Positions 13,960-20,979 of a DNA stretch of 64,000 bases are shown here, piece by piece. Origin of the DNA: an uncultured Verrucomicrobiae bacterium (GTDB taxonomy: Bacteria > Verrucomicrobiota > Verrucomicrobiia > Limisphaerales > AAA164-E04); the NCBI GenBank assembly GCA_943788245.1, contig CALSPN010000026.1, forward strand, positions 81,905-145,904, read 5' to 3'. The translations under genes were made by a program, and so were the position numbers. The notes below the pieces were generated by a model. That model saw nothing but the letters and a program-made list of their open reading frames with translations, did no database searches and was not told the DNA's origin. Every line of letters begins with the position of its first letter. The stretch's first letter is position 1.

Positions 13960-15369
13960 TCATGGTTGTGTTAGTTGAATCGTGAAATCTTGCCTTCTGT
14001 AAAGACAAGTTCCATTGATTTCTTCGCAGATATTGTAAAGTGCATAGCCTTTGAGTTCGTGTGAGTTTTCCCCCGTGTGTTGGACTATTTCAAACTCAAG
14101 AGATCGTGGGGATTGATCGGTGACCAAGGGGGGATTGGGGAATTGAAGAAATACCCTTTCCGGCCCCCAGCCTTTGCTCGACTTAAGCCAGACAGTCAGA
14201 GGCTCGGCTTCGTTGTTCCAATGAAATGCGTGGGCAACATTCGGTTGCAATCGCAAGTGAATACGTAACGCTTTTTTGCTCGCATCCGTTGCGGATACAA
14301 TTGTCGATTCAATCTGAATCGCAGGCAGAATATCGCGAAACACCCTCCCTCCGGGATCTGGCTCTGAAAGTTTCTTGATGGAATCAGTGTTTTTTTCAGC
14401 TGGATAGGCAAACTCGGCACCTCCTGGCTCAACTCGCAGGGGGAAAGGTTTTTCTCCTCGGGCAGTAATTTCCTTACGAGCCTGATTCACCCAATCATAA
14501 AATGAATAGGGTTTATCCAATCGTGGGCCGTATTGCTGAATCCTGCGGCGCCAGATATATTGATTCGGATCCAGCTCCAACGCAGTCTGCCACGATTTAA
14601 TTGCTTTGGTGAAATCTTTCGAATTGGATTGATTCAGATCAAAAAAACTCCGGTGGGCAACCCCCATTCTGAAATGCAGCCATCCATCATCAGGCGCATT
14701 GGAGGAGGCCATCTGATATGCATGAATGCATTCATCCAGCCGAAGGTCTCCTCCCCAAAGAAATAAGGAATCAGCATATGCTCCCCATGCCTCAGCAGTC
14801 TGCCGCATGCTGGCTCTGAGCTTGAGTTTTTCCAAACCCGGACTACCGGGAAGTGCATTTATTGCGTCGTCACGCTCATCATGAGGAGATGAGACCGAAT
14901 CCACAAATGCTTCGAATTCTTCCTGTGAGGGATTGATGGACCGAACGATTCCCTTTTCATCGATCAATACGGTGTAAGGAACGGCCGCCACCTTGAGGAG
15001 ATTGAGTGAATCTACAAGGATAAGCCAATCCATCTGATGCCACTGCATGAACAGTCGACAACGGTCTGGATGTTGTTCTTGAATGATTCCGAGGACTTTA
15101 ATTTTACCATCAAGTCGGAAGGGCTCTGTGCGAGCGTGCCACACGGGCACGTGCTGACGACATCCTGCTCACCAAGAGGCAAAAACATGCAATACAACTT
15201 TTTCACCGTAATAATCATGAACTGAAACCGGTTTTCCATTTTCAAGCGACGGAAAAGAATAATGAGGAAAGGAAGAATTTTTTTCAAATGCATGACTCAT
15301 GACTGTGAATAGTAAAAAAAGAACGCATGGAATCGAATGAATAAGAATCGTGTGATGAGTTTTTTTCAT
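13960..15369 (-). CDS. Candidate selenoprotein: thioredoxin-fold/TPR/DsbD-alpha-like exported protein with in-frame TGA (Sec67)
   Basis: The track lists two ORFs (15169-15369 and 13960-15150), but they are in the same frame and separated only by one TGA at 15169-15171. Read through, they form 469 residues. Residues 1-27 are a signal peptide. Residues 33-170 are a TlpA/thioredoxin-like domain with VVLHVFASW-U-AGC, so the TGA replaces the first Cys of WCxxC, and AAVPYTVLIDEKG supplies the cis-proline. Residues about 185-310 are TPR-like (AIKSWQTALELDPNQ). The C-terminal beta domain ends in NICEEINGTCLYRRQDF, like the Cys pair of DsbD alpha domains. A SECIS-like hairpin follows the TGA. The likely role is thiol-disulfide exchange in the periplasm. 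Alternatives are a TGT/TGC-to-TGA sequencing error or a true nonsense mutation; no selA/B/D or tRNA-Sec lies in the window. Confidence 0.75.
15135..15151 (-). promoter_or_regulatory. Putative bacterial SECIS hairpin
   Basis: Downstream of the in-frame TGA on the mRNA there are 17 nt, then CGTGCC-CGTGT-GGCACG: a perfect 6-bp stem with a 5-nt loop. The loop starts 24 nt after the TGA and has G at its second position. Bacterial SECIS elements are known to be short stem-loops about 16-37 nt after UGA with a G among the first loop bases, so geometry and sequence agree. Two more G-C pairs can form below after an internal loop. Energy was not computed. Confidence 0.6.
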
Positions 15370-15416: not shown

Positions 15417-16769
15417 TCACCTGACTTTCGTTTTGAAATAAAACCTGAAGGTCAGGCAAAAGGCAGCAACTCCCAGCCCTAAAGCCAGACCAATCCAAAT
15501 CCCCAAAGCTCCCTTCTGATAATAAAAAGCGAGCATACACGCCATCGGCATGGCCAGGAGCCAGTATGCGACAATCGCCACAATCGCAGGTATCCTTACA
15601 TCCTGCATCCCGCGCAATATGGAAATCGCGGTCACCTGAAGACCATCAAAAACCTGGAATATGGCGGCTACCATCAGCAACTGGACAGCTAGATCCTGTA
15701 CCTCTTTAGATTCCACAAACCAAGCGGCCATCGTCCTGCCTCCAAAAAAGAATAAACAGCCGAAAGCAGTCATCAACACGACGGCAGTCATCAAACTAAC
15801 CAGCCCAATGCGCCGCACACGGCGATTCAGTCCGGCCCCGAGGACTTGCCCGACTCGCACTGAAGCAGCCATTCCGAGACTGAGGGAAAACATGAACGTT
15901 GTGCTGGCACAGGTGAAGGCAATTTGATGAGCCGCCAAAGCATTCGCCCCGATCCATCCGAGCATGAGTGCCGCAAATGCAAAAGATCCCATTTCCAGCA
16001 GGTGCTGAAGCGACACAGGCAAACCCAACTTGAACAGCTTCCTTAAAACCGGTAGATCTCCCGCACCCGACCAGGAACCTTGACGAAAACGCGCCAGTGA
16101 TTTGGATCGCACCAGCCAAGCAATCATCGCAGCAGCAGTCACGATACGAGCCAGGAGGGTTGCCAATCCGGCTCCGTTGAGCCCCATCGCAGGGCAACCC
16201 AGATTTCCGTATATCAACATCCAGTTGAGCAGAATGTTAAGTAAGACGCCCCCGATCATGAGTAGCGTGGGGATCCATGGATGGTTCAATGCTTCACAGA
16301 ATTGTTTTCCAGCCAAACCAAGCAACATCGGCAGCAAACTAGGCGCAAGGAACCAAAGATAACCTCCGGCGGCATCAACAACCTCGGGAGGTTGTCCCAG
16401 AAAAGGCAGTATCCACCGGAAGGCCATGAAGATGACCACAAGTAAAGCAGATGTGACCAGCGTCAGAACGGCTGAGGCTCGATAAACGCGGCCTACTTGT
16501 AAAGGGTCATTGGCCCCGAAGGCATTGGCACTGAGCACAGAGACAGAGGTCAACATACCAAATCCAAACACCATGGGAAGGTGAAACAAGTTGATCACCA
16601 AAGAAGAGGCTGCCAACGGAATGACCCCCACCTGCCCCACCATCACGGTATCAGCAATACCCATGAGGGTCTGTCCGACGAGACCGGCCATGATCGGCAA
16701 ACTCAATCGAAACAAAGAACGCACTTCACGTGCATATTTCCATAAAACCCTTAAGGTACGATAATTCAT
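15417..16769 (-). CDS. MATE family efflux transporter (NorM-like)
   Basis: A 450-residue inner-membrane antiporter with the usual twelve hydrophobic helices in two related halves. The first half has LPIMAGLVGQTLMGIADTVMVGQVG, the conserved TM1-TM2 entry motif, and the second half has LPVSLQHLLEMGSFAFAALMLGWIGANALAAHQIAF. MATE proteins export cationic drugs or metabolites using Na+ or H+. The substrate cannot be inferred here. It lies just upstream of the thioredoxin-fold candidate selenoprotein on the same strand with about 50 bp between them, so co-transcription is possible. Confidence 0.93.
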   Translation of the reverse strand: MNYRTLRVLWKYAREVRSLFRLSLPIMAGLVGQTLMGIADTVMVGQVGVIPLAASSLVINLFHLPMVFGFGMLTSVSVLSANAFGANDPLQVGRVYRASAVLTLVTSALLVVIFMAFRWILPFLGQPPEVVDAAGGYLWFLAPSLLPMLLGLAGKQFCEALNHPWIPTLLMIGGVLLNILLNWMLIYGNLGCPAMGLNGAGLATLLARIVTAAAMIAWLVRSKSLARFRQGSWSGAGDLPVLRKLFKLGLPVSLQHLLEMGSFAFAALMLGWIGANALAAHQIAFTCASTTFMFSLSLGMAASVRVGQVLGAGLNRRVRRIGLVSLMTAVVLMTAFGCLFFFGGRTMAAWFVESKEVQDLAVQLLMVAAIFQVFDGLQVTAISILRGMQDVRIPAIVAIVAYWLLAMPMACMLAFYYQKGALGIWIGLALGLGVAAFCLTFRFYFKTKVR

Positions 16770-20376: not shown

Positions 20377-20979
20377 TCAACGAACCAACATTGCCGCTAC
20401 TCTTTCCCAACTTTCCAAGTCATCCACATCCTCCAGAGTTCTCAGTTGGAAGCAATTCAATCCCAACTTTTTAATTCTATCATAGGTTTGCCCCAAAACC
20501 TGATCAGTACTCCAGCTGATGTTTGTGAATATTTCCGGCTCAGCATTTCTGAATCCTATCATCCAATATCCACCATCTGCTGCGGGACCTATGACGACTT
20601 CTGAGGATAGCAGCGCTTCAATGGCTGTTTCCACATCGTAGGATTCAACGTAGGGGCAGTCCGTTCCAAAAATTAAAACGGCATCTGCCTCATCCAGGGC
20701 CTGGTGCATCGCACGTTCCATCCTCTCCCCAAGGTTTCCTTCCCCTTGGGGTTTCATCGTCCAATGAGACGATTTTAAAAAAGGAGTCATCGCATCGACT
20801 GCATTATCCGGAGTAAAGCGAAGTTCGACGTTCTGACAGGCAGACAATTGATTCAAAAAATGGTGAGCCAACAGCTCGTAGGCGCGACATGCTTCCTGAT
20901 TACCCAATGATACCGCAAGACGGGTTTTAACAAAACCTGGCTTGGGAGCTTTGATGAAAACAACGATCTTGACCTTCAT
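20377..20979 (-). CDS. DUF2064 / TIGR04282-type glycosyltransferase-like protein
   Basis: A 200-residue nucleotide-diphospho-sugar-transferase-fold protein. The start MKVKIVVFIKAPKPGFVKTRL is the family signature for the nucleotide-binding loop. LIFGTDCPYV is the DxD-like region and VIGPAADGGYWMIGF the substrate loop. Related proteins are annotated as arsenosugar biosynthesis glycosyltransferases when next to arsS, which is not present here, so the substrate is open. It is convergent with the pseudopilin gene. Confidence 0.85.
   Translation of the reverse strand: MKVKIVVFIKAPKPGFVKTRLAVSLGNQEACRAYELLAHHFLNQLSACQNVELRFTPDNAVDAMTPFLKSSHWTMKPQGEGNLGERMERAMHQALDEADAVLIFGTDCPYVESYDVETAIEALLSSEVVIGPAADGGYWMIGFRNAEPEIFTNISWSTDQVLGQTYDRIKKLGLNCFQLRTLEDVDDLESWERVAAMLVR

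Follow-up and report, generated by a model that had tools for sequence, protein, structure and literature searches.

The window, as the whole 64,000-nucleotide stretch of DNA analyzed here is called, comes from the genome of a marine Verrucomicrobia bacterium and carries on its minus strand a gene at 15369-13960. An earlier note on this DNA had described two open reading frames lying in one frame and split only by a TGA, and this was borne out, with the TGA at 15171-15169. In the thioredoxin motif FASW-U-AGCR (W-U-A-G-C), this internal TGA stands where the first active-site residue is encoded. The gene appears split into two because the standard code reads a selenocysteine (Sec) TGA as a stop. 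The features of the locus are the following.

15417..16769, minus strand: MATE-family transporter gene (PF01554, E 1e-52), ending about 48 nt upstream of the selenoprotein gene on the same strand
13960..15369, minus strand: selenoprotein gene of 469 aa with Sec67; a single open frame with one internal TGA and its true TGA stop at 13962-13960
15286..15369, minus strand: N-terminal hydrophobic, signal-peptide-like stretch, residues 1-28, from inspection of the sequence
15169..15171, minus strand: in-frame TGA read as selenocysteine, residue 67, motif FASW-U-AGCR; TGA in 110/110 distinct motif stretches from homologues
15135..15151, minus strand: SECIS hairpin, 6-bp stem and 5-nt loop (N1-G-N-N4-U), 17 nt after the TGA; supported by compensatory changes, constrained synonymous codons and fold energy
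14899..15276, minus strand: TlpA/ResA-like thioredoxin domain with UxxC and cis-Pro131, residues 32-157; Pfam AhpC-TSA, ResA as best fold match
14572..14835, minus strand: helical TPR-like region, residues 179-266; as many as 65/79 members match TPR models, and the structure model shows helices
14488..14571, minus strand: family signature DPNQYIWRRRIQQYGPRLDKPYSFYDWV, residues 267-294; across 79 sequences, most columns are invariant or nearly so
13963..14376, minus strand: C-terminal Ig-like beta domain with the invariant CX6C pair C448/C455, residues 332-469; model pLDDT 89.8, fold search
14005..14028, minus strand: CEEINGTC, from the C448 codon (14028-14026) to the C455 codon (14007-14005); invariant in the alignment

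The MATE gene and the family gene have the same arrangement in L050 and L068, and co-transcription of the MATE and selenoprotein genes is possible. Comparison of 80 loci gave no widely conserved neighbor, the largest clusters comprising 4-6 loci, and the neighbors are too little conserved for a pathway to be named. The window also contains a TIGR04282 glycosyltransferase gene (20377-20979), of a kind labelled arsenosugar-associated, and L050, L068 and L101 have TIGR04282-like genes close to the family gene. Directly 3' of the family gene in L094 (7457-8431) is a second in-frame-TGA gene, encoding an N-terminal part and then an AhpC-like domain with HWUPFC. Adjoining the family gene in L086 (7440-8018) is a peroxiredoxin-like gene with an in-frame TGA in GGWUPYCN.

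Conservation of the TGA codon and the SECIS hairpin

Strong matches to the gene were found in 18 of 196 related genomes, and wherever such a match spans the motif it is interrupted by exactly one stop, a TGA. When species genomes were scanned with a pattern, 80 loci were obtained among the matches listed, with 116 weaker matches lying outside these loci. The 80 loci come from Verrucomicrobiota, Acidobacteriota, Planctomycetota and Gemmatimonadota, together with a few other phyla; the latter are represented by a handful of records whose titles, which for MAGs may be in error, name Poribacteria, Neomarinimicrobiota, Armatimonadaceae and Actinomycetota. Searching with a family profile returned matches in 2/388 genomes of the window's own phylum, 19/396 of the phylum of L066 and 42/392 of the phylum of L101. 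Profile matches spanning the motif in the three phyla again have exactly one internal stop, TGA, and those without an internal stop are pieces outside the motif. The frame and the C-terminal end of the gene are common to 79 aligned homologues. A tree of 79 proteins places the Gemmatimonadota together and the other phyla mixed, a topology that allows for gene transfer without proving it.

The earlier note had proposed to compare the aligned position in homologues, and this position is always TGA, with zero exceptions. No Cys codon, TAA or TAG occurs there among the 110 distinct motif stretches; the statement that there is no Cys form thus refers to the sequences read, i.e., the genomes sampled and the matches listed. 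A weak homologue from the same genome, L002, was considered as a Cys orthologue and rejected, being a common CxxC protein that lacks the remaining domains. Misreading of a TGT or TGC codon, raised as a possible refutation in the note, is excluded, since the TGA recurs in genomes that were sequenced independently, among them a single-cell genome with a 97% identical protein. A screen of TGA triplets across the window, requiring an open frame on both sides, left four candidates with a comparable hairpin, and only the TGA at 15171-15169 falls in a recognizable active-site motif.

The hairpin reads CGTGCC (stem), CGTGT (loop) and GGCACG (stem), and its 6-bp stem, 5-nt loop, G at loop position 2 and start exactly 17 nt past the TGA are as the earlier note gave them. 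Its loop, as we take it, resembles that of the Moorella SECIS, a resemblance that was not counted as evidence. Folding, a check that had been suggested beforehand, gave a divided result: the isolated hairpin has a fold energy of -8.5 kcal/mol (z -2.5), whereas the 50-nt stretch from the TGA folds no better than shuffles (z 0.19). The bacterial SECIS model (PMC13188914 Fig. 2) is satisfied on all points: a loop of 5 nt (model, 3-9 nt), a stem of 6 bp (4-16 bp), G at position 2 (first two loop positions), 23 nt from UGA to loop (16-37 nt) and the energy of -8.5 kcal/mol (MFE at most -7.5). A comparable hairpin follows 42 of the 2904 TGA triplets in the window; because such a hairpin is not rare by itself, the decision was left to relatives. 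Taken alone the hairpin would be weak evidence, and at the level of sequence the comparative evidence is decisive.

In every homologue the hairpin starts exactly 17 nt past the TGA. Loop positions N1 and N4 are paired in 109 of 110 stretches (68 expected), and two further stem pairs vary in compensation across the 110 stretches, e.g., from GC to AT, CG or TA. The N1:N4 signal and both stem-pair signals each exceed all 5000 shuffles in a test that ignores shared ancestry, yet the compensatory changes are of several kinds and occur in different rows. The valine codon of the 5' stem is GTG in 82/82 stretches of the first set, compared with about 39% GTG elsewhere in the same genes, a synonymous-codon constraint whose combined probability is overstated because related sequences are counted as independent. 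The fixed offset, together with compensatory changes in the stem and at the loop-closing pair, indicates that the hairpin is selected as RNA. It provides an example of a hairpin maintained by compensatory change within a coding sequence, across phyla.

Selenocysteine machinery and the reading of the TGA

The genes selA, selB, selD and tRNA-Sec, which the earlier note had proposed to look for, are all present in the window's own genome (79% complete), with scores of 285 bits for selB, 468 for selA and 398 for selD. In this genome selB and selA adjoin, the tRNA-Sec has the anticodon TCA, and the SelD gene (L048) also encodes a selenoprotein, through an in-frame TGA of its own (CAGUAAK). Among the 196 relatives, selA occurs in 17 of 18 family genomes versus 54 of 178 others (Fisher p 1e-7). 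It was also found in 20 of 21 further family genomes, the exception being a small draft with a tRNA-Sec match. The family gene follows selB-selA-tRNA-Sec in L094 and L125, has selB directly upstream in L096 and L078, and has selA and tRNA-Sec upstream in L080. A SelD-type synthetase fused to a pyridine-nucleotide-disulfide oxidoreductase is encoded in L096 (178-2433), near selA-selB and the family gene. The single-contig MAG G597, the genome of L112, has the family gene and selA, with no tRNA-Sec match above the tRNA-Ser background; its tRNA-Sec may be divergent.

With TGA at the aligned position in every homologue and the Sec machinery in the genome, the selenoprotein reading is strongly supported. 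We conclude from the sequence evidence that 15369-13960 is almost certainly an intact selenoprotein gene, a degree of confidence that applies to the Sec assignment alone. Two other readings of the TGA were weighed. A decayed gene (pseudogene), or a sequencing error at the TGA, is favored by nothing beyond the standard-code reading and has a vanishingly small probability, given that the codon is identical in all homologues across phyla with the frame kept on both sides; error or decay would not recur in this way. It is also extremely unlikely that translation ends at the TGA and each half is a protein of its own, with GTG 15150 as the start of the second. A GTG codon is indeed present past the TGA, but it sits in the hairpin stem and is CTG, GTA, GTC, GTT or ATA in some homologues, and the split would part two active-site residues of one thioredoxin domain. 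Under such a reading TAA or TAG would be tolerated, and neither occurs among the stretches read; the presence of Sec machinery in the family genomes argues against it as well.

The family thus read occurs in several bacterial phyla, and the copies read all use selenocysteine, none cysteine. Because standard annotation splits the gene, it is easy to miss this conserved redox protein, which many uncultured bacteria encode. Many bacterial selenoproteins are described as derived from widespread Cys homologues (PMC13188914). In the genomes sampled here the search turned up no Cys orthologue, and the family is therefore a good test of what selenium can do and sulfur cannot.

Domain architecture and proposed function

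The thioredoxin domain matches Pfam AhpC-TSA (E 6.6e-10; 39.4 bits, cut-off 26) and has ResA as its top fold match (E 3.4e-8); domain match and fold place it in the TlpA/ResA thioredoxin superfamily. U67, C70 and the cis-Pro P131 are invariant in the homologues covering them, in agreement with the cis-Pro pointed out previously. C448 and C455 are Cys in 79/79 and 78/78 aligned members. The label "DsbD-alpha-like" given to the C-terminal region holds in part: the region forms an Ig-like sandwich in which a CX6C pair is invariant, but its matches to Pfam DsbD_N, which span the domain, fall below threshold (best 15.0 bits among the matches listed, cut-off 25). The best fold match of this domain is ApaG, not DsbD, and a profile search of the domain against PDB sequences returned nothing significant.

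From fold and conservation, the family is rather likely to be an exported selenol-disulfide oxidoreductase with an internal redox relay. Comparative data support a scheme in which the SECIS hairpin 17 nt downstream, SelB and tRNA-Sec would place selenocysteine at UGA codon 67, and the product is predicted to be exported. The Sec67 selenolate of the ResA/TlpA-like domain would then attack the substrate, with Cys70 resolving, as the fold and the conserved residues suggest. A partner is probably held by the TPR region together with the conserved middle segment. Electrons probably pass between the C-terminal CX6C pair and the UxxC site, as they do between the two corresponding domains of DsbD, one thioredoxin-like and one Ig-like. 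Overall, the protein would require selenium and act outside the cytoplasm as a reductase or isomerase of disulfides. Alternatively, the CX6C pair could have a structural role or bind a metal. We tentatively suggest a more specific model, in which this unnamed family is obligately Sec-dependent and a self-contained, soluble counterpart of DsbD: electrons would pass between the UxxC domain and the protein's own Ig-like CX6C domain, the TPR region and signature would hold the partner, and cysteine would never be accepted.

A different function is conceivable for a genuine selenoprotein of this kind, namely that UxxC and CX6C act outside the cytoplasm on peroxides, or on a metal or metalloid, and are not engaged in disulfide exchange. 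Among domain models, those for AhpC-TSA/Redoxin give the thioredoxin domain its highest scores, and MerA-like oxidoreductases are encoded near the gene in L054, L101, L102 and L120, some of these four loci also having DUF547, VTT and TIGR04282 genes (NCBI label arsenosugar-associated). However, such neighbors are confined to about 4 of the 80 loci, the protein lacks the TxxU motif that Sec peroxiredoxins have, and UxxC, cis-Pro and ResA as the top fold match point to thiol-disulfide exchange. We therefore consider peroxide or metal handling unlikely and retain the selenol-disulfide oxidoreductase as the preferred function.

Comparison with known redox families

The combination of UxxC, TPR and a DsbD-like domain, judged unusual in the earlier note, is not clearly matched by any Pfam, NCBIfam or catalogue entry. 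NCBIfam has no close model except NF041054, the ResA-like WAxxUGC family (WAxxUGC_long), which likewise has a TlpA/ResA-like domain with active-site Sec and which all family members match weakly. The window protein scores 53.9 bits against a cut-off of 300 and has UxxC (UAGC), in contrast to the UxC (WASWUGC) of NF041054; moreover, a Cys form of the NF041054 type exists (L020, WASWCGC). NF041054 UxC relatives within the same order are L021, L023, L030 and, as the cysteine form, L020. A 2026 review (PMC13188914) catalogues 119 selenoprotein families and subfamilies, and none of the 119 entries names the architecture of the window protein. Table 1 of the review includes a "Redoxin family protein" (PF08534, UxxC, HEU0032618.1), whose architecture is not stated. 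Compared by description alone, this entry has a Redoxin domain and UxxC as in the window family, and it might be the same family. The literature was also searched for a TPR-containing or WAxxUGC selenoprotein, and nothing relevant was found.

ResA, TlpA and CcmG (DsbE) share with the window protein the fold, the cis-Pro and the position of the active-site pair, whereas the window protein has Sec for the first Cys and, in addition, the TPR region, the signature segment and the C-terminal domain. DsbD likewise combines a thioredoxin-like with an Ig-like domain, both of which carry a redox pair, and structures of its N-terminal domain are among the fold matches of the window protein's C-terminal domain. 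The 469-residue model lacks the transmembrane electron-transfer domain of DsbD, and the window protein differs further in having CX6C and a reversed domain order.
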